Shown one piece after another: positions 2,927 to 30,619 of a stretch of DNA of 64,000 bases. The stretch lies in assembly GCF_001485535.1 (NCBI RefSeq), contig NZ_BCMZ01000001.1, forward strand, positions 310,001-374,000, in the 5' to 3' direction. Below the pieces are notes generated by a model. The model saw nothing but the letters and a program-made list of their open reading frames with translations, did not search any database and was not told the DNA's origin. The stretch's first letter is position 1, and every line of letters starts with the position of its first letter. The DNA comes from Halobacterium sp. CBA1132. GTDB taxonomy: Archaea; Halobacteriota; Halobacteria; Halobacteriales; Halobacteriaceae. Both the position numbers and the translations under genes were made by a program.

Positions 2927-2990
2927 AGTGAACGCTTCTACCGTCGGGGCGCACATAAACGCTACGTTGCGTGGCCGACCGGCGGGAGGC

Positions 2991-3095
2991 CACGTTAGAG
3001 TGAGCGGCGAACTGCGTGCCCGAGCAACGCGAGGGCACGTTACACGCGAACGGCGACCGTAGGGAGCCGTGAGCTGCGTGCCTGGGTAACGCGAG
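2991..3095. repeat. Degenerate tandem duplication in the gap between L37Ae and DUF2103
   Basis: Two diverged copies of one unit lie in tandem. Copy one starts CACGTTAGAGTGAGCGGCGA at 2991 and ends CTGCGTGCCCGAGCAACGCGAG-like at 3033. Copy two starts CACGTTACACGCGAACGGCG at 3036 and ends at 3095 with the same pattern (CTGCGTGCC, then AACGCGAG), after an internal insertion. No ORF, tRNA fold or obvious promoter is visible here. It may be a decayed duplication of an intergenic element. Confidence 0.5.
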
Positions 3096-3116
3096 ACTGC
3101 AAGAATTCAGTCTCGC
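3091..3116 (-). terminator. Hairpin straddling the stop codon of the DUF2103 gene
   Basis: A perfect 9-bp inverted repeat: GCGAGACTG at 3091-3099 and CAGTCTCGC at 3108-3116, around an 8-nt AT-rich loop. The right arm includes the TGA of the minus-strand DUF2103 gene. Archaeal termination normally relies on U-tracts, and none is obvious, so this may instead stabilise the mRNA 3' end. Confidence 0.45.
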
Positions 3117-3829
3117 AGTTCTTCGTCGGCGAGCGCCTCGTTGAGGTCAACGCGGACGCGCTCGCCGGTGTCGCGATCCATCGCGGTCGTCACGACGCGG
3201 TTCTCTTGGACGCTGGAGCCGTCGCGGACGAGCAGTCGGAGGTTGCCGTTGTCGTCGGCGCGCGTGACCTTCGCGCGGACGCCGGTGCGCGAACTCGAAC
3301 CGCCGGCGTCGATGGGGCCGGGAATCACTTTCTTCACGTTCGGGTGGTCGGCGACGGTGCGAATCGCGCGCTGGCCGTCGCGGTTCCCGATGAGCGTGGA
3401 GTGGCGGCCGCCGATTTTCTCGCTGGCCGGTTCGTCGACGACGTCCAGCGAGCGGTCGCCGCGACGCTCGACAACCGACTCGACGGGGTTCTCGCGGGGG
3501 ACGCGGTAGACCTCGTAGTGGAGGTCCGCGCGGACCGCACGAATCACGTCGTGGTCGCCCGCGACGAAGACGTCCTCGGGGCGCTTGCGCCGAATCTCGT
3601 CGGCGATGCGGCCGGCGAAGTTCCGCAGTTCCACGACGCCGGTCTCGCCGCCCTCCTCGGGGACGGTCGCGATGTCGGTCTGCCCGACGACGGCTTCGTC
3701 GTCGAGGAACGTCAGCGTCGCGTGGTCGCGGTCGCAGGCGGCGACGACGGCGTCGCAGTTGGCGGTGTCACAGACTAAGCAGTAGTCGCCCGGCTTCCGC
3801 AACGGGGTGCCACACCGCTGACAGTCCAT
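3107..3829 (-). CDS. DUF2103 family zinc-ribbon protein
   Basis: A 240-residue cytosolic protein. I chose the ATG giving MDCQRCGTPLRKPGDYCLVC because upstream sequence in this frame is Arg-rich shadow sequence. An N-terminal zinc ribbon uses C3, C6, C17 and C20. The middle domain carries ELRNFAGRIADEI, and the later part has SEKIGGRHSTLIGNRDG and NVKKVIPGPIDAGGSSS, followed by a beta-rich end (VRAKVTRADDNGNLRLLVRDG) that could be OB-like. This matches an archaeal family listed as DUF2103 (putative metal-binding). Its function is unknown; the ribbon plus a Gly/Ser-rich basic patch suggests nucleic acid contact, which is inference. Confidence 0.75.
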   Translation of the reverse strand: MDCQRCGTPLRKPGDYCLVCDTANCDAVVAACDRDHATLTFLDDEAVVGQTDIATVPEEGGETGVVELRNFAGRIADEIRRKRPEDVFVAGDHDVIRAVRADLHYEVYRVPRENPVESVVERRGDRSLDVVDEPASEKIGGRHSTLIGNRDGQRAIRTVADHPNVKKVIPGPIDAGGSSSRTGVRAKVTRADDNGNLRLLVRDGSSVQENRVVTTAMDRDTGERVRVDLNEALADEELRD

Positions 3830-19100: not shown

Positions 19101-20447
19101 ATGGGTCTGTTCGACCGGCTCCGCGGCGACGAGGGGTCGCGAGTCGCGTTCATCGGCATCGACGGTGTCCCGTACAGTCTGATTCGGGACGAGCCCGAGA
19201 CGTTCCCGAACCTCCACGACGTCATCGAGTCGGGCGGCGGCGGCGCCATCGACAGCATCGTCCCGCCCGAGTCCAGCGCGTGCTGGCCGTCGCTCACCAC
19301 CGGCGTCAACCCCGGAGAGACCGGCGTCTACGGGTTCCAGGACCGCGAGATCGGCAGCTACGACACGTACGTTCCGATGGGCCGGGACGTGCAGGCCGAC
19401 CGCGTCTGGGACCGCGTGACCGACGCCGGCCGGGACGCCACCGTCCTCAACGTCCCCGTCACGTTCCCGCCCCAGCGCAACGTCCAGCGCATGGTCTCGG
19501 GGTTCCTCTCCCCGGGCCTCGACAAGGGCGCTCACCCCGAGGACGTCAGTAACTACCTCGACTCCATCGGCTACCGCATCGACACGAACGCCAAGCTCGG
19601 CCACCAGGACGACAAGACCGAGTTCATCGAGGACGCCCACGAGACCATCGACGCCCGACAGGAGGCGTTCCTGAACTACGTCCGCGAGGACGACTGGGAC
19701 CTCTTCTTCGGCGTGTTCATGACGACCGACCGCGTCAACCACTTCCTGTTCAAGGACTACGAGCAGGACGGCGAGTACCGAGACGAGTTCCTGGAGTTCT
19801 ACGAGAAGGTCGACCGCTACATCGGCGAACTCCGCGACGAACTCCCCGACGAGGTGGCGCTGGTCGTCGCCTCCGACCACGGGTTCACCAGCGAGGACTA
19901 CGAGGTCCACCTCAACCAGTGGCTCGAAGACGAAGGGTGGCTCTCCTTCGAGGACGACGACCACGACAGCCTCGAAGACATCAGCGACGACACGAAGGCG
20001 TACTCGTTCATCCCCGGGCGGTTCTACGTCAACCTCGAAGACCGCGAGCCACGCGGGAGCGTCTCCGAATCGGAGTACGAGGACGTGCGCGCGGAACTGA
20101 AGGAGAAACTCCTCGCGCTGGAGGGGCCGGACGGCGAACCGGTCGTCGACCGCGTCGTCCCCAAGGAGGAGGCCTTCGACGGCGCCCACGACGAAATCGC
20201 GCCCGACCTCGTCGCCATCCCGAACCACGGCTTCGACCTCAAGGCAGGGTTCTCGGGGGCCGACGACGTGTTCAGCGTCGGCCCGCGCAACGGGATGCAC
20301 TCCTTCGAGAACGCCACGCTGCTCGCCGACGACCCCGACGTCACCGTCCCCGAGGGGACGGACCTCTTCGACATCACGCCGACGCTTTTGGACCTCCTCG
20401 ACGTCGACTTCGACGCCCGCGAGTTCGACGGCGAGACGCTCGTCTAG
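19101..20447 (+). CDS. Alkaline phosphatase superfamily protein (type I phosphodiesterase/nucleotide pyrophosphatase-like)
   Basis: A 448-residue enzyme of the alkaline phosphatase fold. Metal ligands fit: D-G in AFIGIDGVPYSL, the nucleophile Ser/Thr in PESSACWPSLTTGVNPGETG, D-H in MTTDRVNHF, and the classic DHG in VVASDHGFTSEDYEVHLNQW. A last His lies near FSVGPRNGMHSFENATL. Haloarchaeal homologues are annotated as alkaline phosphatase or phosphoglycerate mutase-like proteins, with substrates unknown. I started at MGLFDRLRG, two codons inside the longest frame. It converges on cetZ with a 4-nt stop overlap. Confidence 0.85.
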   Translation: MGLFDRLRGDEGSRVAFIGIDGVPYSLIRDEPETFPNLHDVIESGGGGAIDSIVPPESSACWPSLTTGVNPGETGVYGFQDREIGSYDTYVPMGRDVQADRVWDRVTDAGRDATVLNVPVTFPPQRNVQRMVSGFLSPGLDKGAHPEDVSNYLDSIGYRIDTNAKLGHQDDKTEFIEDAHETIDARQEAFLNYVREDDWDLFFGVFMTTDRVNHFLFKDYEQDGEYRDEFLEFYEKVDRYIGELRDELPDEVALVVASDHGFTSEDYEVHLNQWLEDEGWLSFEDDDHDSLEDISDDTKAYSFIPGRFYVNLEDREPRGSVSESEYEDVRAELKEKLLALEGPDGEPVVDRVVPKEEAFDGAHDEIAPDLVAIPNHGFDLKAGFSGADDVFSVGPRNGMHSFENATLLADDPDVTVPEGTDLFDITPTLLDLLDVDFDAREFDGETLV

Positions 20448-21517
20448 AGGAGGTCGTCCAGTTCGTCGCTCCGGAAGTCCTCGGTGGCTTGCTCTTCCTC
20501 GACGGACTCGCTGGCTTCCTTCGCGCGCTCCATGAACTGCTCGATGCGCTCGGAGCGAGAGATACCCGACAGCAACACGAGCACCGCGATTTTGTCCGAG
20601 TCGAGCGGGAAGTCCCCGCCCCGGACCTGCATGCTGCGCGTCTCCTCTTCGACCCACGAGCGCGCCTTCTCGACGCCCTTCCGTGAGACGCGGTCGGACT
20701 CGCCCGCGACGACGACCAGCGCCGCGCCTGCTTCCGTGGTTTCGGGGACGCTCATCCCCGTGAGCAGGGACTTCCGCGCCGTGGACGTGACGACGTTGAC
20801 GTTCTCACCGGCGTCGGGGGCGGCGTCCGCGCTCGCGAACCCGACCGCGGACATGTTCCCGGACTTGAGCGTGTTGATGACCTCACTGGAGTCGACGACG
20901 CTCTCCCCGACGCCCTCGACGTTCTCACCGGCGGCGAGCAGGATGCCGACGCGGCGCGCGATGCGCTCGTTGATGGCGTCGAACGCTTCCGTGACGCTCT
21001 GTCCGGTCTTGCGCCACGCGTCGTTGTCCACGAGCAGTGTCGAGTCGGCCTCCCGGACGAGCGTCTTCAGCGACCGGCCGGCGTTCGCCTGATAGATGCC
21101 GCCCTCGTCGCGGCCCGGAAGGATGCCGAGCGCGTACACCGGAATCTCGTGGACGCGCTGGAGTTCCTTCACGAGCACGGGCGCGCCGCCGGAGCCGGTG
21201 CCGCCGCCGAGGCCGGCGACGACGAAGATGGCCTCGGTCTCGGCGGTCACGACGCCGTCGAGCGCGCCGACGACCTCGCGGACATCGCTCTGCATGACCT
21301 CCGCGCCGAGTTCGTTGTCGGCGCCGACGCCGTGGCCTTTCACGCGCTCTTGGCCGACGAGCATCGTGTCGATTTCCAGCGGTTCGAGGTCTGCTTTCGC
21401 CGTGTTGACGGCGAGTGCGCCACGGACGGCGCCGTAGCCGGCTCGACGGTCTTCTTCGAGGAGGGCTTCGGTGACCTTTCCGCCGGCCTGACCGACGCCG
21501 ATGAGGGCGGCTTTCAT
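20444..21517 (-). CDS. cetZ: CetZ-family tubulin-like cytoskeletal protein
   Basis: A 357-residue GTPase of the FtsZ/tubulin superfamily, CetZ branch, which in haloarchaea controls cell shape and motility. Start is MKAALIGVGQAGGKVTEALL, the CetZ form of the first nucleotide loop. GHGVGADNELGAEVM and the tubulin signature VAGLGGGTGSGGAP bind GTP. The T7 loop is near FDAINERIARRVG, which activates the neighbouring subunit's GTPase. The acidic C-terminal tail (EASESVEEEQATEDFRSDEL) ends with DDLL, a possible partner-binding tail. The alternative name FtsZ3-like is possible, but the GQAGGK start argues for CetZ. Confidence 0.88.
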   Translation of the reverse strand: MKAALIGVGQAGGKVTEALLEEDRRAGYGAVRGALAVNTAKADLEPLEIDTMLVGQERVKGHGVGADNELGAEVMQSDVREVVGALDGVVTAETEAIFVVAGLGGGTGSGGAPVLVKELQRVHEIPVYALGILPGRDEGGIYQANAGRSLKTLVREADSTLLVDNDAWRKTGQSVTEAFDAINERIARRVGILLAAGENVEGVGESVVDSSEVINTLKSGNMSAVGFASADAAPDAGENVNVVTSTARKSLLTGMSVPETTEAGAALVVVAGESDRVSRKGVEKARSWVEEETRSMQVRGGDFPLDSDKIAVLVLLSGISRSERIEQFMERAKEASESVEEEQATEDFRSDELDDLL

Positions 21518-21596
21518 ACGCCGTCCATCTCGGGGCGCAAGCATCAACGTTGCGCCGCCCCGACAGTTAAACCGGAGGACGAGGCCACGGTGTGCC

Positions 21597-22058
21597 GTGT
21601 CCCGCGACGACATCGACGAACGGCTGCGAGCGGTGGAGCGCGCATTGACCGACGGCGACGCCGCCGTCAGCGACCTCTCGGACGCGGCGGCCGTCCACGG
21701 CCGACTCGACGCCGTGGAAGCGGACCTCGCGGACCTCCACGAGCGCCTCGACGCGCTCGACGCCACCGTACAGTCGCTGCACGGCTACGTCGGGGACATC
21801 GAAGCCGTCAACGAGCGCGTCCAGCGGCGCGCGGACGCCGCCCGCGAAGCCGTCGAACGTCTCGAAGACGAACGCCAGCGAACGCCACAGCACCGCCCGA
21901 ACGCGGACCACACAGGCGGAACCGCCACTGGCGACGCTACCACTTCTGCCGAGACCACCAACGCCGCACGTCGCGACCGAACAACATCCGACAGCGAGCG
22001 CGTCGAGGCAGACTCCGACGACGACTCGCTGCTCGACCGCGTCCGGGAGTCACTGTGA
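21597..22058 (+). CDS. Coiled-coil protein opening the secretion-like operon (DUF7310-like)
   Basis: A 153-residue protein starting at GTG (VSRDDIDERLRAVERALTDG). The first 95 residues are a heptad-patterned coiled coil (LDAVEADLADLHERLDALDA). The C-terminal third is a hydrophilic Thr/Asp-rich tail ending LLDRVRESL. It has no membrane segment or signal sequence, so it is probably cytosolic. It overlaps the next gene by 4 nt (GTGA), placing it first in an eight-gene operon with a secretion ATPase. It may act as an adaptor or scaffold for the ATPase, by position only. Family DUF7310 from memory. Confidence 0.75.
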   Translation: MSRDDIDERLRAVERALTDGDAAVSDLSDAAAVHGRLDAVEADLADLHERLDALDATVQSLHGYVGDIEAVNERVQRRADAAREAVERLEDERQRTPQHRPNADHTGGTATGDATTSAETTNAARRDRTTSDSERVEADSDDDSLLDRVRESL

Positions 22059-22519
22059 GCGTCCGCGTCGTGCTCGCAGTCGTGTTCGCGTTCGCGCTGG
22101 TAGCGGCCGCTCAGCCCGCTGTCGACCACGCGACGCGAACGCGGGACAGCGCTGTCGTCGGCGCGAGCGCGGACCGCGTCGCGGACGCCGTCGACGCCCT
22201 CTACCGCCGGAGCGACCCCGGGGAGACAGTCGAAACCGCGCCGCGTCGGACGCTCCGCCTCGACCTCCCCGCGGACGCGACGCTGGCGGTTCGGGACAAT
22301 CCACCGCGACTCATCTCGATACTCCCGAACGGTCCCGAACACCAGCGACTGCTCCCCGTGCGTGTCGCCATGTGCGGCGACTCGACGCTCGACGGCCCGA
22401 CGACGCTGGCGTACGTCGAACGCGCGGACGGCCCGGTCGTCCTCGCGCTCCGAGGGTTTATCCGCGGGAACGCGACCACCGCGTCCCATGCGTGCGCTCC
22501 TCGAACGCTTCCGGGCTGA
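22055..22519 (+). CDS. One-TM extracytoplasmic protein in the secretion-like operon (DUF7311-like)
   Basis: A 154-residue protein with an N-terminal hydrophobic helix (VSVRVVLAVVFAFALVAAAQ), which could be a signal peptide or an anchor. A beta-rich domain follows (TLRLDLPADATLAVRDNPPR, ISILPNGPEHQRLLPVRVAM). It ends in a Cys-containing tail (SHACAPRTLPG). It overlaps the coiled-coil gene upstream by 4 nt and the ATPase gene downstream by 32 nt. Its size and topology are those of a minor pseudopilin or an assembly factor, which is inference. Confidence 0.7.
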   Translation: MSVRVVLAVVFAFALVAAAQPAVDHATRTRDSAVVGASADRVADAVDALYRRSDPGETVETAPRRTLRLDLPADATLAVRDNPPRLISILPNGPEHQRLLPVRVAMCGDSTLDGPTTLAYVERADGPVVLALRGFIRGNATTASHACAPRTLPG

Positions 22520-24284
22520 CGGCCCCGACTGCTGCTGTGACGCCACCCGCGACGGCAGCGCGCTCCGCGTCGACGCCGGCGGCTGTCCGGGCAGCGGCGA
22601 CTTGCTCGCCGAACCCGCGTGTCGCGCCACCGTCACCGCCGCGTGCCGGCAGACGGACGTCGACCGCGTCGTCGTGGACGCCTCCGGGTTCCGCCGCGAG
22701 TACGGGCCGCGCGCCGTCGCGCTGTTCACGGCCGCCGGCCGGTTCGCCGCGAGAGTCGCGGACCGCGACCAACGCCTCGCCGCCCGCGCCCGCACTGACC
22801 CGCTCGCCGCGGCCGCGGAAGCGAGCGGCCGCGCCGGCCCGGTCGCCGACATCGCCGCCGAGACCGGGTTCGCCGCCGCTGCCGGCGACCTTCCCGACTA
22901 CGACGCGCTCCGGCCGCGCGTCGGTCCCGCACTCGCGGACGCCCGCATCGAACCGACGCCCCCACCAGCGGGCCGCCTCCGAGACTCGCGGGCGCTGGAA
23001 ACCGACGCGACCGTCCGCGAGTACGCCGTCCCCGACGGACTCTCCGTCTACCACGTCGTCCCGCCCGAGTACGAGTTCGCGCCCGCGGACTGCCGCGTGC
23101 TCGCCGACGCGCGCCGCCTGCTGGCTGACGGCTCGATTCCCGACGGCGAAGACGCGCCGGGGCGCGCCGTCCGCGAGGCCGCGGGCGAGCACCGCGAACC
23201 GCTCGCGGACGCGCTCCGCAAGCACACCCGCGGCTTCGGCGTCCTCGAAGACCTCTTCGCGGACCCGCGAATCTCGGACGTGTACGCGAGCGCCCCAGTC
23301 GCCGAGGGGTCGCTGCGTGTGACTGTCGACGGCGAGGACGCCCGGACGAACGTCCGATTCACGGACGCGGGGGCCGAGCGCCTCGCGTCGCGGCTCCGCG
23401 CGGAGAGCGGACGTCCGTTCTCGCGCGCGAACCCCACGCTCGACACCGCACTCGACGACCTCGGCACGGCGGGCCGTGTGCGGGTCGCGGGCGTTACCGA
23501 CCCGGTCAGCGACGGCACCGGGTTCGCGTTCCGCGCGCACGACGCCGACCCGTTCCGCCTCCCGGACCTCGTCGCGAACGGCACGCTCTCGCCCCGACTC
23601 GCGGGCTTCCTCGTCGAAGCGCTGCGCCGCGGCGCGTCCGTGCTGTTCGCGGGGGCGCGCGGCGCCGGCAAAACCACGCTCTTGGGCGCGACGCTGTGGG
23701 GGCTGGCCGCCGGCACGCGACTCGTCACCATCGAGGACACACCCGAACTCCCGGTTCGCGCACTTCGCAGCGACGGTCGCGACGTGCAGGCGCTGTACGC
23801 CGACGCCGACGGCGCGGGCGCGGACGTCTCGATGGCAGACGCGCTCCGCACCGCGCTCCGACTCGGCGACGGCGCAATCGCGGTCGGCGAGGTGCGCGGC
23901 GAGGAGGCGCGCGTGCTCTACGAGGCGATGCGCGTCGGCGCCAGCGACGCCGCCGTCCTCGGCACGATACACGGTGAGGGCGCAGCGGGCGTCCGCGAGC
24001 GCGTCGTCTCCGACCTCGGCATCGCTGCGTCGTCGTTCGCTGCGACCGACCTCGTGGTCACGCTCGCGGACACGGCTGGGGGGCGACGCGTCACGCGCGT
24101 CGAGGAAGTCACCGACGACGGGGCCGCGGCGCTCTACGCGGACGAGGGAGACGGCGCCGAACCGACCGGCCGCATCGCACGCGGGAACAGCAGTGTCGTC
24201 GCCGACCTCGCGGCGCCCGGGGAGACGTACGCCGACGTCCGGGACGCGGTTCGCGCCCGCGCCGACCACACGACCGATGCCTGA
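22488..24284 (+). CDS. Type II/IV secretion system ATPase (GspE/TadA-like) with Cys-rich N-terminus
   Basis: A 598-residue motor ATPase that would power filament assembly or secretion. The catalytic domain has Walker A GARGAGKTT (K395), an Asp box (LVTIEDTPELPV), Walker B (GAIAVGEVRGEEA) and a His box (AAVLGTIHGEG). The preceding domain (about 250-370) includes EDLFADPRISDVYASAP, as in archaeal PilB/TadA enzymes. The start (MRALLERFRADGPDCCC) opens an unusual segment with C15-C17, GGCPGSGDLLAEPAC and a fourth site, AACRQTD, which could bind metal. The call of ATPase is firm; the exact machine is not known. Confidence 0.9.
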   Translation: MRALLERFRADGPDCCCDATRDGSALRVDAGGCPGSGDLLAEPACRATVTAACRQTDVDRVVVDASGFRREYGPRAVALFTAAGRFAARVADRDQRLAARARTDPLAAAAEASGRAGPVADIAAETGFAAAAGDLPDYDALRPRVGPALADARIEPTPPPAGRLRDSRALETDATVREYAVPDGLSVYHVVPPEYEFAPADCRVLADARRLLADGSIPDGEDAPGRAVREAAGEHREPLADALRKHTRGFGVLEDLFADPRISDVYASAPVAEGSLRVTVDGEDARTNVRFTDAGAERLASRLRAESGRPFSRANPTLDTALDDLGTAGRVRVAGVTDPVSDGTGFAFRAHDADPFRLPDLVANGTLSPRLAGFLVEALRRGASVLFAGARGAGKTTLLGATLWGLAAGTRLVTIEDTPELPVRALRSDGRDVQALYADADGAGADVSMADALRTALRLGDGAIAVGEVRGEEARVLYEAMRVGASDAAVLGTIHGEGAAGVRERVVSDLGIAASSFAATDLVVTLADTAGGRRVTRVEEVTDDGAAALYADEGDGAEPTGRIARGNSSVVADLAAPGETYADVRDAVRARADHTTDA

Positions 24285-25854
24285 GGCTGCGAACGAGCGA
24301 CGGTCGCTCGCCGCGCTCGTAGTCACTGTCGCGCTCGCCGCTGCGACTGCGCACTGGAATCCGTACGCGGGTACCGCCGTCGCGTTCCTCGGTGTGGCAA
24401 CCGCCGCCGCGCTCGCGTACGGCCCGCACGTCCGCTCGGTCGCCGAACGGTCGCGCGCGCTCGGCGCCGCACCCGACATTGTCTGTCTGGTCGTGCTCTC
24501 ACTGCGTCTCGACCCCGCGCTCGAACGCGCCACCGACTTCGCCGCCGACCACGCGAACGGCCGCCTCGCGGCCAGCCTCGCCGCGCACGCTCGCGAATCA
24601 CGGGGCACGCCCGGCGCTGGATTCGCGTCCTTTGCCGCAACGTGGGACGATCACTTGCCGTCGCTTCGGCGCGCCGCCGCGCTCGCCGACGCAGCAGTCG
24701 ACGCGCCGACAGGGGACCGCGAACGCCTCCTCGACCGCGCCCTCGCTGTCGTCGTGGAAGGTTCACGGGAGCGTGCCAGCGAGTATGCCGACGCCGTCCA
24801 CGGCCCGACGATGGGCGTCTACGCGTTCGGCGTCGTGTTGCCGCTCGCGCTCGTCGGCGTCGTCCCCGCAGCGGCGAGCGCCGGCCTCCCGGTCACGCTC
24901 GGCGCGGTCGCGCTCGCGTACGGTGTCGTGCTCCCGCTGGCGGTGCTGGCGGTCGTCTGCTGGATTCTCGCGCGCCGCCCGGTCGCGTTCCCGCCGGCAG
25001 CCGTCCCCGCCGACCATCCGGACCTCGCGAACCGCGGGCGGAACGCCGCGCTCGCCGCCGTCTGTGGCGTCGTCGCCGCGCTCGTCGCATCCCGATTCTT
25101 GCCCGCGTGGTCGCTGCCCGTGTTGCTCGTCGGCTGGCCAGCTGGGGGCGCACTCGTCTACTGGTTCCGGCCCGCCTGCGAGGTCCGCGAGGACGCCCGC
25201 GAGGTCGAAGCGGGGCTCGCGGACGCGCTCTCCGTGCTCGGCCACCAACTCCGCCACGGCCGCGCCGTCGAGGCCGCGGTCACGGACGCCGGCGACACGC
25301 TCGACGGCGCTGCTGGTGCTGTCTTCGACGACGCAGCGCGGCGGATGCGTCGGCTCCGCGTCGGCGTCGCGGACGCGTTCCTCGGGGAGCACGGCCCGCT
25401 CGCGCGAACGCGCAGCCACCGCGCCCGCGCTGCCGTCTCGCTCGTCGTCCACGCCGCAGACGCCGGTCCGGCGGGCGGTCGCGTGCTCGTGGACGTCGCA
25501 GACCTTTTCGACGACCTCACTGACCTCGACCGCGAGGTGCGCCGCGAGTTCGCGTCGACCACCCGCACGCTCCAGTACACGGCGCTCGTCTACGCGCCGC
25601 TCGTCGCGGGCGTTACCGTCTCGCTCGCTGGTCGCGTGAGCGGCCTCGATGCCGCGTCCGCCCTGCCCGCCGGTCGCCTTGCGCTCGTCGTCGGCGCCTA
25701 CGTGCTGTGGCTTGCAGCCGTGTTACCCGCGCTCGCAGTCGGCCTCGACCGCGGACTGGACCGCGCGCTCGTCGGCTACCACGCCGGCCTCGCGCTCGCG
25801 GCCGCCGCCACCGTCTACCCCGTCACCGCGCTCGCCGCTGCGCGCGTCCTCTAA
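24277..25854 (+). CDS. Type II secretion system F-like (TadB/TadC) membrane platform protein
   Basis: A 525-residue polytopic membrane protein directly after the ATPase (8-nt overlap). Hydrophobic segments occur near residues 11-50, 185-235, 265-300 and 430-520. Two cytoplasmic helical blocks precede and follow the central helices, in the pattern of two fused GspF domains (DIVCLVVLSLRLDPALERAT, then VEAGLADALSVLGHQLRHGR). In type IV filament systems this protein is the inner-membrane platform turned by the ATPase. The arrangement ATPase then GspF is universal in such systems. Confidence 0.85.
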   Translation: MPEAANERRSLAALVVTVALAAATAHWNPYAGTAVAFLGVATAAALAYGPHVRSVAERSRALGAAPDIVCLVVLSLRLDPALERATDFAADHANGRLAASLAAHARESRGTPGAGFASFAATWDDHLPSLRRAAALADAAVDAPTGDRERLLDRALAVVVEGSRERASEYADAVHGPTMGVYAFGVVLPLALVGVVPAAASAGLPVTLGAVALAYGVVLPLAVLAVVCWILARRPVAFPPAAVPADHPDLANRGRNAALAAVCGVVAALVASRFLPAWSLPVLLVGWPAGGALVYWFRPACEVREDAREVEAGLADALSVLGHQLRHGRAVEAAVTDAGDTLDGAAGAVFDDAARRMRRLRVGVADAFLGEHGPLARTRSHRARAAVSLVVHAADAGPAGGRVLVDVADLFDDLTDLDREVRREFASTTRTLQYTALVYAPLVAGVTVSLAGRVSGLDAASALPAGRLALVVGAYVLWLAAVLPALAVGLDRGLDRALVGYHAGLALAAAATVYPVTALAAARVL

Positions 25855-25886
25855 GTTTAAATCGGAGGCCGCGACCAACCCGCCCC

Positions 25887-26357
25887 ATGTTCGACACGCT
25901 CGCCGACGTGCCGCCGCTGCTCGTCGCGCTCTCGCTCGTCAGCACGACGCTGCTCGGCGTCGCACTCGCGGCCAAACCGACTACGCAGGTGCGCGCCACC
26001 CCGCTCGCGAACACCGTCGACGCCGTCGCGAGCGCCGACCACGCGAGTACCGAGACGCGCGCCGTCGACGCCGACGCGATTCGACTCACCGAACACGCGG
26101 TCGAAGTGCGCGACGACACCGGCGAATCGAGAGCGTCGTACGCGTACGGGCCGGTTGTCCCCGTTCGACGCGACACGGCGCTCTGGCGCGTCCTCCGCGG
26201 CGCACCGCCCGGAGACGCATTCGCTGACGAACGCGCCTTCGAGCGCGCGACGGCCGACGCCCGCGACCGCGACGCGGCGTGGCGCCGGGACCGCCAGCAA
26301 CTGCTCGTTCGCCGTGTCACGTGGAGGGGTGTCGATGTCACGCTCGTCGGCGCGTGA
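25887..26357 (+). CDS. One-TM extracytoplasmic protein (DUF7283-like) of the secretion-like operon
   Basis: A 156-residue protein with one N-terminal membrane helix (LLVALSLVSTTLLGVALAAK), then a soluble domain (VDADAIRLTEHAVEVRDDTG; ASYAYGPVVPVRRDTALWRV). No prepilin peptidase site typical of archaellins or pilins is obvious. It follows the GspF-like gene by 32 nt and overlaps the next gene by 23 nt. Its likely position is the outer face of the membrane, as a minor pilin-like or assembly protein; this is topology plus context, not a recognised function. Confidence 0.7.
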   Translation: MFDTLADVPPLLVALSLVSTTLLGVALAAKPTTQVRATPLANTVDAVASADHASTETRAVDADAIRLTEHAVEVRDDTGESRASYAYGPVVPVRRDTALWRVLRGAPPGDAFADERAFERATADARDRDAAWRRDRQQLLVRRVTWRGVDVTLVGA

Positions 26358-26727
26358 GGCGCAAGTCGAACCGCTGCCCGCGCTCGTCGCCGTGGCCGTC
26401 GTCTGTCTCGCTGTCGGCGCGTTCGCGACGGTGCGTGCGGACGTCTTCCCGGCCGCCGTGAGCGATGCGCCCACCGACGAAGTGCTGGCGGACGCGGTGG
26501 CTGCGGCGTCGCCTACGGACGCCGTGGTGGTCGCGCCCGACCGCCTCACGGCCTCGGTCGCGCCCGCCGGCTACGAGGTCAACGTGACGGTGACGGCGGG
26601 CGACCGCGAGTGGGCAGCCGGCGAACAGCCGCCGCCCGACGCCGCGACTGCGAGCCAGCGCGTGCCGGTGCGCGTCGCGGCCGGTCGGACGCGCCCCGGT
26701 CGACTCACCGTGGAGGTGTGGTCGTGA
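26335..26727 (+). CDS. TadE-like one-TM protein of the secretion-like operon (DUF728x)
   Basis: A 130-residue protein. Its start MSRSSAREAQVEPLPALVAV has a short polar segment followed by a membrane helix (LVAVAVVCLAVGAFATVRAD). This layout (polar, Gln-Val-Glu-Pro, then hydrophobic helix) resembles Tad-type pseudopilins and other proteins with an N-terminal anchor and Glu near the helix start. The soluble part is a beta-rich domain (VVAPDRLTASVAPAGYEVNV). It overlaps both neighbours. I would test for class III signal peptide processing, but the usual cleavage motif is unclear. Confidence 0.65.
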   Translation: MSRSSAREAQVEPLPALVAVAVVCLAVGAFATVRADVFPAAVSDAPTDEVLADAVAAASPTDAVVVAPDRLTASVAPAGYEVNVTVTAGDREWAAGEQPPPDAATASQRVPVRVAAGRTRPGRLTVEVWS

Positions 26728-27182
26728 GCCGCGCCATTAGCACCGTGCTCGACGCCTCGCTCGCCGTTCTCCTCGTCAGCGCGGCCGCCGTCGCTCTCGT
26801 CACGATACCGGGCGGCGACCGGCGGCCGCCGGACCCGGACGCCGCCGCACGCACCGTGCTCGCGAGCACGGCGACCGCCGAGTACCAGACCGCGAACGGG
26901 AGCCAGCGCGCCGTCTCCGGGCGGGTCGGCACGCTGCTCGCGCACGCCGCGGTGGCCGACAACCGCTCGGCGAATTCTCGGTTCGCTGACGCGGTCGAGA
27001 ACGCTGTCGGGGACGTGCTCGCGAGCGTGGACGGCCACGTCGCTGTCGTCGCGACCGCAGGCGACGGGCGCGTTCGCGTCGGGGAACGCCCGCCGCCGAG
27101 CGCGTCAGTCGCGGCGGTCGCCCACGAAGCCGTCGCGGAGAACCACTCTGTGACCGTCACCGTCCGGACGTGGTCGCCGTGA
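26724..27182 (+). CDS. Pseudopilin-like one-TM protein of the secretion-like operon (DUF728x)
   Basis: A 152-residue protein starting at GTG, overlapping the preceding stop by 4 nt. The N-terminus VSRAISTVLDASLAVLLVSA is a hydrophobic helix preceded by two basic or polar residues, close to the start of archaeal pilin-like proteins (R-A-x-S-T-V-L-D). An extracytoplasmic domain follows, with Asn-Gly-Ser and Asn-Arg-Ser sites that could be N-glycosylated (TANGSQRAV, VADNRSANS, AENHSVTVT). Its function is unknown; it is probably a component of the same envelope assembly. Confidence 0.65.
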   Translation: MSRAISTVLDASLAVLLVSAAAVALVTIPGGDRRPPDPDAAARTVLASTATAEYQTANGSQRAVSGRVGTLLAHAAVADNRSANSRFADAVENAVGDVLASVDGHVAVVATAGDGRVRVGERPPPSASVAAVAHEAVAENHSVTVTVRTWSP

Positions 27183-30136
27183 GACTCGCCGACGACGATC
27201 GCGCTCGCGCGCCGTTCGCACTGGTCGGCGTGGTGTTGCTCGTCGCCAGCGCCACCGCGGCGGCCACGCTCGCCGGCCGCTCGCCGGTGCCGTCGGAGAC
27301 GCGCGCCGACCGCGCAGTCGAACGCGCGCAGACGAGCGCGGACACGGCGCTCGCCAGCGCCGCCCGCACGGCCGCCGCCGAGGCCATCCAGCACCCCGTC
27401 GTCGAACCGTCGAATACGACGTTCGGAACCGCTATCGGCAACGACACGCCGTTCCGCGACGCCCTGGCGTTACGCGTGTACGCTCGCACGGAGCGCGCGC
27501 TCCGCGGCCACGACTCGACCGTCGGCGCAGTGTCGGTGTCCGCGTCGCTGCCGCGCGTCGAAACCACCGTGGACGCTCGGCGAGCAATCGAACGCGTCTC
27601 GCTGGAACGCGTCGGCGACGACCTCTTTCGCGTCACGCTCTCCGAGGTGCGCGTCGACGTCGAGCGCGACGGCGCGCTCGCCTCGCGGTCGACGACGAAC
27701 GTCTCGACGACCGTCCACAGTCCTGCGTTGGCGCTGCGCGACCGCGTCCAGCGCTTCGAGCGCCTGCTCGACCGCGGCGCGTTCGCCGGGCCGGGTTTGG
27801 ACCGCCGGCTCACGGACTACCTCCACCGCGTCGTCTGGCTGCGCGGCCCGCTCCAGTACGCCGGCGTCCCGATTTCGAACGTGCTCGCGAACCGCCACGT
27901 GGAGGTGATGGCGAACCGCGCGCTCCTAGACGTTCAGCGGACGGCGTTCGGTCGGGAGGACGACGAGGCCCGCGCCGCGTACGGCCGCGCGCTGGCCCGC
28001 GTCGGCATCGACGACGTGCTCGCGGTCACGAAAGCGAGCGCGAAGGCACGCGCGAACGAAGTTCTCAGAGCGCCGGAGACGCCCTCGACGCCGACGAAAG
28101 TCGGCCTCTCGTCCGCGCTCGACGCAGTCGAGTCCAGTCAGTCCGTCCCCGTCGGCGTCAACGCGACTGCAGACCGCGCGTTCCTCGACTTCGTGGACGG
28201 CGACAGCGAGACGTCACTCGACAGCACGCTGCGCGCCGCGTTCACGTCGCTCGCGCGCCGCACGGCCGACGCGACAGTCGTCGACCGGACCCACTCGAAG
28301 TCCGGGCACATTCCTGCGAACTGGACGCTCGCGGACGTCACCGACGCCCGTGATGTCGACGTCGAAGACACCGTCGACCCCGGAGACGTGCTCGCGGACG
28401 ACCGACGAGCGGTCGAGACGTACGGCCGGCGCGTGGTCGTCACCGACCACGAGACCTACCGCTACGTCCGCGGCAACCGCACTCAGAGCGTCGTCGAGAC
28501 GACCGAGACCGAGTACCGCGTCTCCGTCGGCGTGAGCTACGCGCTGCGGCCGCCACGCCGCGACCGCTCCGTCGCGGGCGCCGAACGCGTCCTCGACGCG
28601 GCCGCAGCGACAGTCGGCCCGGCGATGCATCGCCGCATCACGGCCCGCGCGGAGCAGTCGCTGGTCGCGGCGGCGGGCGGCGTCGACGCGCTCGCTCGGC
28701 GGGCCGCTGCGGGGGAGTCGCTCGCCCGGGAGGAAGTCGTTCACCCCAGCGTCCCGGCGTCGGTCCGCGAGCGCGCGTACCGGGCTGCTGCGACGCTGCG
28801 AACGCGGAGTCGGAACGTCTCGGCGAACGTCTCCACGCGCGGCCTCGCCGCTGGCCGCGTCCCCGTCGACACCCTGCACGACCGCGTCGTAGCGCTCCAC
28901 GACGCCCGCGACAGCTACGACTCGGCGACCGACCGCGCCGTCGCCGCCGTCCGCGAAACATACCTCGCGCGAGTCGCCGAGCGACTTGGCGACCGACGCG
29001 CGGACGGCGCGCTCGCGTCGATAGGCGACGCGCTCGGCAGTCGGGGCCTCGAATCGCCGCCGACCGACCACGGGAGCGAGGCCGACGCCGGCCCCGTCGA
29101 GGCTGTCGAGGGCGCTCCGGCGTACCTGACGCTCGCGGAAGTCTCGCCCCGGCGACTGGGCGAGCGCGGTCGGCCGTACCACCCGCTCGCGGCGCGGAAC
29201 GTGAACTGGTTCACCGTGCCGCACGGCGACGCGGCGGCGGCCGTCGTCGACGCGGCGATGCCCGACCCGCCGGAGTCGGTTCGTGTCGGCACCGCAGCGC
29301 AGGCGCTTGCGGCTGCGAACGGTACGCTCGGCGCCGCGGCGAACCGGACACTCGGCGACCGCCGGACAGCGCTCCGAACTGCGGTCGCGGACAGCGTATC
29401 GGCGGCGGGACGAGCGTACCGGAACGTGCTGGCAGCGTCGCCGGTCTCATTCACGGAGCGCGAGCGCCACGCGGCGACGCAGCGCGCGCTCGCACACTGG
29501 TCGTCCGTCCACGAACGCGGGATGGCTGTCGGGAACGGGTCCGCAGCGAGAGCAGTCGCGGACGAGGCTGCGAGCATCGCTGGCATCACCTCACAGCGGC
29601 GCGACCGACTGGCGACCCGACTCCGCGCTGAATCCACGGACATCGTCGATAGTGACGCGGTTCGCGTCGAGGCGGGCGTCGTGCGGGACACGGCGGAGCT
29701 GACTCACCGCGTCGGGAGCGCACTCGCGGAACAAGCGCTCTCGGAGGCGGGGTCGGTCGCGGCCGAGAAAGCCGCGAAGAAACTCGGCGCGGCGGACGTC
29801 GGCGCGGTGCCGGCGGGCCTGCCGCTGGCGCCGGTGCCGGGGTTCTGGTACGCGACTGCGAACGCGTGGTCGGTGTCCGTCAGGGGGTCGTACGCGTCGT
29901 TGGCGGTTCGCGCGGACGGCGGGTCGCCGATTGGACCCGGGGACGGAACTGCCTACGTCCGAGAGGACGCCAGCGTCGCGTTCGATGTCGACGGTGACGG
30001 TGCCGCGGAGCGCGTCGGCCGCAACGAGCGGGTGTCGTTCGACGTGGAGGCGACGATTGGCGTGGTCGTGCCCGCCGGCCCGCGCGGCGTCGGCGACGTG
30101 GACGGGAACGCTGACGAGCAGTCCGCGGGGTGGTGA
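27179..30136 (+). CDS. Large one-TM extracytoplasmic protein (985 residues; DUF7286-like) ending the secretion-like operon
   Basis: The longest gene in the window. Near the start is a single membrane helix (FALVGVVLLVASATAAATLA), followed by more than 900 residues predicted outside the cell. The bulk is helical, with Asn-X-Thr/Ser sequons spread along it (SNTTFGT, NRTQSVV, NVSANVSTRG, ANGTLGAAANRT). The C-terminal region is beta-rich (WYATANAWSVSVRGSYASLA, GDGAAERVGRNERVSFDVEA) and ends in a possible Asp-rich calcium site (DVDGNADEQ). It overlaps the preceding gene by 4 nt. Size and place recall TadG-type proteins, but sequence similarity cannot be judged here. Confidence 0.75.
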   Translation: MRLADDDRARAPFALVGVVLLVASATAAATLAGRSPVPSETRADRAVERAQTSADTALASAARTAAAEAIQHPVVEPSNTTFGTAIGNDTPFRDALALRVYARTERALRGHDSTVGAVSVSASLPRVETTVDARRAIERVSLERVGDDLFRVTLSEVRVDVERDGALASRSTTNVSTTVHSPALALRDRVQRFERLLDRGAFAGPGLDRRLTDYLHRVVWLRGPLQYAGVPISNVLANRHVEVMANRALLDVQRTAFGREDDEARAAYGRALARVGIDDVLAVTKASAKARANEVLRAPETPSTPTKVGLSSALDAVESSQSVPVGVNATADRAFLDFVDGDSETSLDSTLRAAFTSLARRTADATVVDRTHSKSGHIPANWTLADVTDARDVDVEDTVDPGDVLADDRRAVETYGRRVVVTDHETYRYVRGNRTQSVVETTETEYRVSVGVSYALRPPRRDRSVAGAERVLDAAAATVGPAMHRRITARAEQSLVAAAGGVDALARRAAAGESLAREEVVHPSVPASVRERAYRAAATLRTRSRNVSANVSTRGLAAGRVPVDTLHDRVVALHDARDSYDSATDRAVAAVRETYLARVAERLGDRRADGALASIGDALGSRGLESPPTDHGSEADAGPVEAVEGAPAYLTLAEVSPRRLGERGRPYHPLAARNVNWFTVPHGDAAAAVVDAAMPDPPESVRVGTAAQALAAANGTLGAAANRTLGDRRTALRTAVADSVSAAGRAYRNVLAASPVSFTERERHAATQRALAHWSSVHERGMAVGNGSAARAVADEAASIAGITSQRRDRLATRLRAESTDIVDSDAVRVEAGVVRDTAELTHRVGSALAEQALSEAGSVAAEKAAKKLGAADVGAVPAGLPLAPVPGFWYATANAWSVSVRGSYASLAVRADGGSPIGPGDGTAYVREDASVAFDVDGDGAAERVGRNERVSFDVEATIGVVVPAGPRGVGDVDGNADEQSAGW

Positions 30137-30187
30137 GCCGTCGCGGCAAGCGTAGCCTCCTTGAACGCGGGGCACGTACAGCCAACC

Positions 30188-30619
30188 GTGCTAGCCGACG
30201 AGATTCAGGACGCCGAGGCAGTGACCGCGGGGGACGTTCGTGCCGACTACGAGGCGGCGCTCGCGGCCGTCGTCGAAGCGGAGGGCGTCGACGCCGTCGC
30301 GGACGTGTCGGGCGTCGACGAGCAGCGAATCGCGGCGCTCGCCGACGGCGAGTCCGTCGAACTCACGCTCGAAGAGGCGGCGGGTATCTTCGCGGCCAGC
30401 GACGACTGGCCGGACGCCGAAGGCTTGCTGCTGGAGGCTCGGGACAACTTGATGCTCCAGATGAGTTCCGCGGTGCTGGACGTGGAGGCGCTCGCCAGCG
30501 GCCTCGACGACGACTACGACCCCAAGGAGATTCAGCAGAAAATCGAGGGGCGCCAGCCGATGTCACTCGGCGAGTACGCCCGCATCTACCGCCACATCGC
30601 CAGCGAGAACCCCTACTGA
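30188..30619 (+). CDS. DUF5791-like small acidic protein
   Basis: A 143-residue soluble, mostly helical protein. I chose the GTG giving VLADEIQDAEAVTAGDVRAD; a TTG 27 bases upstream is the only earlier start. Later segments are LTLEEAAGIFAASDDWPDAE and DYDPKEIQQKIEGRQPMSLG, the latter resembling a small DNA- or protein-binding helical hairpin. A family named DUF5791 fits from memory. Its stop overlaps the start of the SDR gene (TGATG), so both are likely co-expressed. Confidence 0.7.
   Translation: MLADEIQDAEAVTAGDVRADYEAALAAVVEAEGVDAVADVSGVDEQRIAALADGESVELTLEEAAGIFAASDDWPDAEGLLLEARDNLMLQMSSAVLDVEALASGLDDDYDPKEIQQKIEGRQPMSLGEYARIYRHIASENPY

Follow-up and report, generated by a model that had tools for sequence, protein, structure and literature searches.

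Makarova, Koonin and Albers (2016) described a subclade of archaeal pilus ATPases, 4F, which occurs in Halobacteria and Methanomicrobia and often has a Cys-rich N-terminus (PMC4858521). Its loci include a halobacterial coiled-coil protein and an ftsZ-like gene, and they were linked to stand-alone PilA-type pilins, with arCOG02981 as the proposed major pilin (PMC4858521). Brown and Duggin (2023) then reported that, in most of the Haloferacales and Halobacteriales they examined, cetZ2 is flanked by a type IV regulon, pilB2/C2, and suggested a mobile or recently acquired element (PMC9856176). This regulon comprises pilB and pilC, several predicted pilins and one surface protein, with arCOG04674 (hypothetical), arCOG03095 (sugar epimerase) and arCOG01377 (phosphodiesterase) as neighbours (PMC9856176). 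The clade label of PilB2 varies between papers, since Legerme and Pohlschroder (2019) assign it to 4C. No experimental study of the pilB2/pilC2 locus was found in the literature searched, nor any mention of DUF7286, the family of its largest exported protein. The present analysis deals with a locus of eight genes, called g1 to g8 in their order, of Halobacterium sp. CBA1132. It lies in a window of 64,000 nucleotides (G000:C1:310001-374000), to which the coordinates given below refer. With a probability of about 0.8, this locus represents in Halobacterium the pilB2/pilC2 regulon of haloarchaea, which is of the type IV pilus type and has an ATPase of subclade 4F. The features of the window match one by one those of the two descriptions (PMC4858521, PMC9856176). 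The locus type is thus already described and widespread, and the first-pass annotation, made from the letters alone, was mistaken in calling it an undescribed surface machine. It probably builds a thin surface filament of the type IV pilus family; we infer this filament, its cargo and its function from the genes. What is new here is the near-invariant gene order, the co-inheritance of the ATPase with DUF7286, the restriction of promoter-like boxes to three genes, and a set of deletion scars in Halobacterium.

The eight open reading frames (ORFs) could be verified, all on the forward strand between positions 21597 and 30136, in a region of about 75% GC. The assembly ATPase, of the T2SSE/VirB11 type, is encoded by g3 (pilB2, 22488-24284) and matches PF00437 well above the cut-off (69.5 bits against 24.9, E-value 2.8e-19). 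Its N-terminus is Cys-rich: at least four cysteines are found within the first 60 residues in 60 of 64 orthologs, and C15, C33 and C45 are conserved without exception in Halobacteria and methanogens alike. In a phylogenetic tree with long branches, from which the published 4F reference set is absent, g3 groups with ATPases of four methanogens that carry DUF7286, one per genome (support 100/100). It is not the equivalent of the archaellum ATPase, as its score against the ArlI model NF058587 is 102.9 bits for a cut-off of 550; six T2SSE matches, g3 included, are present in the genome. The putative platform protein, of the T2SSF/TadC-like type, is encoded by the next gene, g4 (pilC2, 24277-25854). 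A Tad (tight adherence) pilus of the bacterial type could be considered here, as TadA (TIGR03819) is the NCBIfam model that g3 fits best and CpaF structures rank high among its PDB matches. The TadA score is nevertheless far under its cut-off (134.5 versus 373 bits), none of the Tad families, TadE/F/G and Flp included, was matched among g1-g8 in Pfam and NCBIfam up to E=1, and the conserved neighbours are CetZ2 and DUF5791. A Tad pilus is thus largely refuted and extremely improbable: of the likeness first proposed, a weak one of the ATPase stands, and that of the small exported proteins to TadE/F/G does not.

The six accessory proteins are all members of Pfam DUF families. The first gene, g1 (21597-22058), encodes a cytoplasmic coiled-coil protein of family DUF7310 (PF23991, 2.6e-27), which probably corresponds to arCOG07564 of Makarova, an identity deduced indirectly. 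One N-terminal hydrophobic helix is present in each of the five other proteins, namely g2 (DUF7311, 22055-22519; PF23993, 9.8e-19), g5 (DUF7283, 25887-26357; PF23954, 6.5e-38), where it is a signal-anchor helix, g6 (DUF7285, 26335-26727; PF23956, 1.8e-26), g7 (DUF7284, 26718-27182; PF23955, 1.5e-13) and g8 (DUF7286, 27179-30136; PF23957, 1.4e-267), an exported protein of 985 residues. The inventory of the first-pass annotation, with its GspE/TadA-type ATPase, its coiled-coil protein and its five one-helix proteins, is thereby confirmed, as is the overlap of most genes by 4-32 nt: six of the seven junctions overlap, by 4, 32, 8, 23, 10 and 4 nt. Viral families were not found by comparison with PHROGs.

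The same arrangement is encountered throughout the order. Among 101 loci from Halobacteriales genomes of several families, the succession of a divergent cetZ2, g1-g8 and DUF5791 is nearly invariant; most apparent order swaps arise because frames that overlap were sorted by stop-to-stop limits, and the missing genes are explained by truncated contigs. The recurrence of the g1-g8 set and of its order in almost all these loci is far beyond chance, and answers positively the co-conservation check that had been proposed. A CetZ match is found in 72 of the 101 loci, mostly directly upstream and divergent, and a DUF5791 match in 91. In the window, the CetZ gene occupies 20444-21514 on the reverse strand and matches the CetZ_C family (PF21011, 4.7e-63). 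Its scores against the PDB are 478.7 bits with 4b45 and 345.9 bits with 4b46, which we take to be CetZ2 and CetZ1 of H. volcanii, respectively, both being labelled only "cell division protein FtsZ" in the PDB table. The CetZ_C match and the 4b45 score identify this tubulin-like cytoskeletal protein as CetZ2, and the FtsZl1 family was ruled out. On the other side, the DUF5791 gene (30161-30619, forward strand; PF19104, 1.3e-47) is a conserved neighbour, not necessarily a part of the machine. An NAD-dependent epimerase lies beyond it, and a phosphodiesterase/nucleotide pyrophosphatase beyond cetZ2. The equations of such DUF families with arCOGs, for example of DUF5791 with arCOG04674, were made by family and position. 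Two loci from family-f8 genomes (L166 and L168) carry a more diverged version, with no cetZ match within the stretch fetched.

The overlaps had suggested a single operon, and they are real, but the g4-g5 junction is a gap of 32 nt that contains a conserved TATA-like box, and three promoters are probably present. A sigma-70 promoter scan being meaningless for an archaeon, the upstream AT profile was used instead, together with a search for a TATA-like pattern 19-40 nt ahead of the start codon. This pattern was found before g5 in 63 of 76 loci, before g3 in 21 of 47 and before g1 in 17 of 47, and in no locus before g2, g4, g6, g7 or g8. An AT peak is located at -31 ahead of g1, g3 and g5 alike, and the conserved box regions of the window, all on the forward strand with the box at about -31, are 21560-21597 (g1), 22455-22488 (g3) and 25856-25887 (g5). 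The latter includes the TTTAAA box (25856-25863) in the only intergenic gap, from which a second transcription unit would start. Such boxes fit leaderless haloarchaeal promoters. The apparent operon thus probably consists of three transcription units, g1-g2, g3-g4 and g5-g8, as judged from these upstream sequences. Halorussus and near relatives (L122, L091, L103, L090) have the genes in three separate blocks, g1-g2 (together with cetZ2), g3-g4 and g5-g8, and the boundaries of these blocks are those of the predicted units.

The three promoter-like sites and the split in Halorussus could also mean that two or three independent modules sit together without forming one machine, the more so as methanogens have g6-g8 and the ATPase at separate places. 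Co-inheritance argues otherwise. In 197 genomes of the phylum, searched for the ATPase (profile A5, E <= 1e-60) and for DUF7286, both are found in 45 genomes, DUF7286 only in 2, the ATPase only in 1 and neither in 149 (Fisher test 8e-41, relatedness ignored). One of the two DUF7286-only genomes carries a deletion remnant and the other is an 84%-complete assembly. The two are missing together in several distinct lineages. In methanogens, the ATPase and DUF7286 genes are unlinked (1.92 Mb versus 2.43 Mb in G300) yet retained together in the genome, and g6-g7-g8 are contiguous in one methanogen family. Furthermore, DUF7283 and DUF7285 are both absent from the 19 of 19 tested genomes that lack DUF7286 or have only a remnant of it. 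With an association so nearly perfect even between unlinked genes, independent modules are very unlikely, and a single co-inherited machine of the type IV filament type, made of ATPase, platform and exported subunits, is supported, in agreement with the idea first put forward. The length of DUF7286 proteins is about 1000 residues in haloarchaea and can reach about 1400 in methanogens. In a genome from another family of the phylum (L169, genome G453), the C-terminal DUF7286 region appears as three shorter tandem ORFs (3-935, 1537-2343 and 2951-3772). These alternate with small exported proteins, which may resemble the sarcinarray family.

The pilin-like nature of the exported proteins was assessed from their N-termini. 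Prepilin processing sites show a charged residue at -2 and G, A or S at -1, followed by a hydrophobic helix; those of characterised archaeal pilins include RAVS, KAIS, RALS, KGQV and RAQI (PMC4371748). The window's g6 reads EA/QVEPLPALVAV, where the slash marks the predicted cleavage position, and most of its orthologs read R[AG]/Q[VTA]EP; a charged -2 with a small -1 is present in 78 of 79. The site of g7 is RA/ISTVLDASLAVLL (RA/ISTVLD type), with R[AG] at -2/-1 in 64 of 97 orthologs. The g8 protein starts with an R-A/R-A-PFALVGVVLL helix (RA/RAPFALVGVVLL), with R[AG] in 94 of 98 orthologs. Methanogen homologs of g8 display DG/ARVPFAVIG or RA/YIPFAVIG, and those of g7 display DG/YSTIIDAI. No prepilin-type site was found in g2, and the window's own g5 fails the rule. 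As a control, shuffled N-regions pass the rule at the same place in 7-13% of cases, the sequences compared being related to one another. Weighing site conservation against the limits of the rule, g6 and g7 are good prepilin candidates and predicted minor pilins (or a pseudopilin for g6), g8 is a plausible one, and the status of g5 is uncertain. The first-pass annotation had seen no obvious class III signal and no recognisable pilin in the locus; these sites in g6, g7 and g8 correct that view. The length of g7 varies, with 154 residues here versus about 260-300 in most orthologs and 363-410 in methanogens; an internal or C-terminal segment has apparently been lost in this lineage.

A processing enzyme was also thought to be missing. 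The genome encodes one Peptidase_A24 match (G000:C1:2363719-2364108), away from the locus, as in other haloarchaea, and four Pilin_N ORFs above cut-off. The peptidase and possible major pilins therefore need not be in the locus. The lack of an abundant small major pilin among g1-g8 is nonetheless what would be expected of a short pseudopilus for protein secretion, a T2SS-like piston made of g6-g8 with no long fibre. The size of g8, far bigger than a normal pilin, and a core conserved between Halobacteria and methanogens that consists of g6-g7-g8 plus the ATPase, would also fit a piston. Archaea have, however, no outer membrane for such a piston to cross, Makarova et al. tie the 4F loci to stand-alone PilA-type pilins (PMC4858521), and the four Pilin_N ORFs are available in this genome; secretion in place of an adhesive pilus is thus judged quite unlikely.

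Structure prediction was applied to two of the candidates. The AlphaFold2 model of g6 (pLDDT 80) has an N-terminal helix (14-37), a second helix (48-58) and a four-stranded sheet (81-129), a predicted layout compatible with a pilin, without a specific PDB match. In that of g8 (pLDDT 78.5, pTM 0.49), an N-terminal helix (7-31) gives way to helices and strands that extend to residue 180; further on come a region rich in sheet (357-456), a helical one (703-868) and, at the C-terminus, a domain of strands (892-981). The helix and sheet expected from the start are thus seen in the g6 model, whereas a match to a solved pilin was obtained for neither protein. These predicted structures neither prove nor exclude a pilin fold, and are not a proof of a new one. 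The profile of g6 retrieved nothing among the sequences of solved structures; that of g7 retrieved a weak uL16-like match at its end only, judged spurious. A homology between g6 and g7 (hhalign, 96%) was set aside as a probable artefact: the alignment behind it, A4, held a misassigned row (L115:8764-9177) overlapping the g6 gene of that locus, and the value was 2.7% once the alignments were rebuilt under different row filters. No convincing relationship emerged when the profiles of g2, g5, g6, g7 and g8 were compared in pairs.

Several observations weigh against identifying the locus as a pilB2/pilC2 pilus-type regulon that builds a filament. The platform protein g4 sits beside the ATPase as expected and does match PF00482, but with 22.4 bits (1.3e-4) it stays below the 25.2 cut-off, and its orthologs score 17.6-20.7 bits or have no match; the GspF/TadC-like assignment is retained with this reserve. 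The R-[A/G] site is missing from g7 in many Haloferacales, and the +1 residue of g8 is usually Arg, which is unusual for a prepilin. The specificity of the prepilin rule is limited, since it also passes 61 of 77 g5 orthologs through D-[A/S] sites (D-[A/S]-W-Y type). Fold comparison (VIA) gave for g6 a best Z of 5.9, with scattered ribosomal proteins, and for g8 a best Z of 6.0, with a SecB-like sheet at 359-513, and no solved pilin was among the matches listed for either. Finally, the filament itself is a prediction from sequence.

The history of the locus can be read from species in which it has decayed. Deletion scars were observed between cetZ2 and DUF5791 in several Halobacterium species (loci L167, 8380-9318; L203; L204; L116, 9815-10558). 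In G056, residues 1-56 of g1 are joined to residues 770-985 of g8; in G088, g1 and residues 754-985 of g8 are left; in G129 and in L116 (Halobacterium sp. KA-4; the two are probably one genome), what is left is g1, g2 and 30 codons from the start of g3, joined to residues 800-985 of g8. The breakpoints fall into three distinct sets, which suggests that deletion occurred three times or more. Every scar retains the last 185-230 residues of g8, and this end may perhaps hold the DUF5791 promoter or a useful domain. The scars are best read as repeated loss, which weighs against a recent acquisition, and together with the co-inheritance in methanogens they point to an old system that has often been lost.

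A working model can be proposed for the machine. PilB2 (g3) would act as a hexameric ATPase on the cytoplasmic face and power the membrane platform PilC2 (g4). The g6 and g7 proteins, and probably g8, would be inserted by Sec, then processed by the one PibD-type peptidase of the genome, whose gene lies outside the locus, and joined through their N-terminal helices into a filament or a short pseudopilus. With its roughly 1000 residues, g8 could be a giant pilin-like subunit, a tip adhesin or a subunit spanning the surface layer, and the machine may function in adhesion. The g2 and g5 proteins, anchored in the membrane, may serve as helpers in the envelope, g1 may be a cytoplasmic regulator of the coiled-coil type, and CetZ2 might act as a scaffold for positioning, while the main fibre subunit would probably be a PilA-type pilin encoded elsewhere. 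A bolder version is offered tentatively, as rather unlikely: g8 would be a giant subunit akin to pilins, processed by PibD and with a fold not yet described. Together with g6, g7 and a dedicated ATPase it would form a filament tip or a secretion piston of ancient origin in the euryarchaea, and in haloarchaea CetZ2 would position it. This well-conserved locus of the type IV filament type lies next to a gene of the tubulin family in most of the haloarchaea that possess it. The prepilin-type sites, the co-inheritance of the ATPase with DUF7286 and the module boundaries make the locus directly testable in Haloferax volcanii, whose genome contains the DUF7283, DUF7285 and DUF7286 families. The deletion scars also inform the choice between a recent acquisition and an old trait lost time and again.

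Compared with known systems, the locus shares related ATPase and platform families with the bacterial Tad pilus, with no Tad pilin or TadE/F/G relative among g1-g8. The PilB3/PilC3-PilA and PilB1/C1 pili of H. volcanii resemble it in their engine and in their PibD-type processing sites but belong to different ATPase clades; PilB3/C3 was shown experimentally to make adhesion pili and PilB1/C1 to affect adhesion, whereas no experimental work on PilB2/C2 was found. Subclade 4F has in common with the locus the Cys-rich N-terminus of the ATPase, a TadC-type platform (putative in the window), the coiled-coil protein, the ftsZ-like neighbour and a distribution over Halobacteria and Methanomicrobia, its proposed major pilin arCOG02981 being encoded away from the locus (PMC4858521). 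The closest counterpart is the cetZ2-linked pilB2/C2 regulon (PMC9856176), with which the window shares CetZ2, arCOG04674, the epimerase arCOG03095, the phosphodiesterase arCOG01377 and pilB/pilC accompanied by several predicted pilins and a surface protein, equated by family and position. Nothing essential differs between the two; it is the reading of their origin that differs, the present data pointing to an old and often lost system rather than to a recent acquisition.

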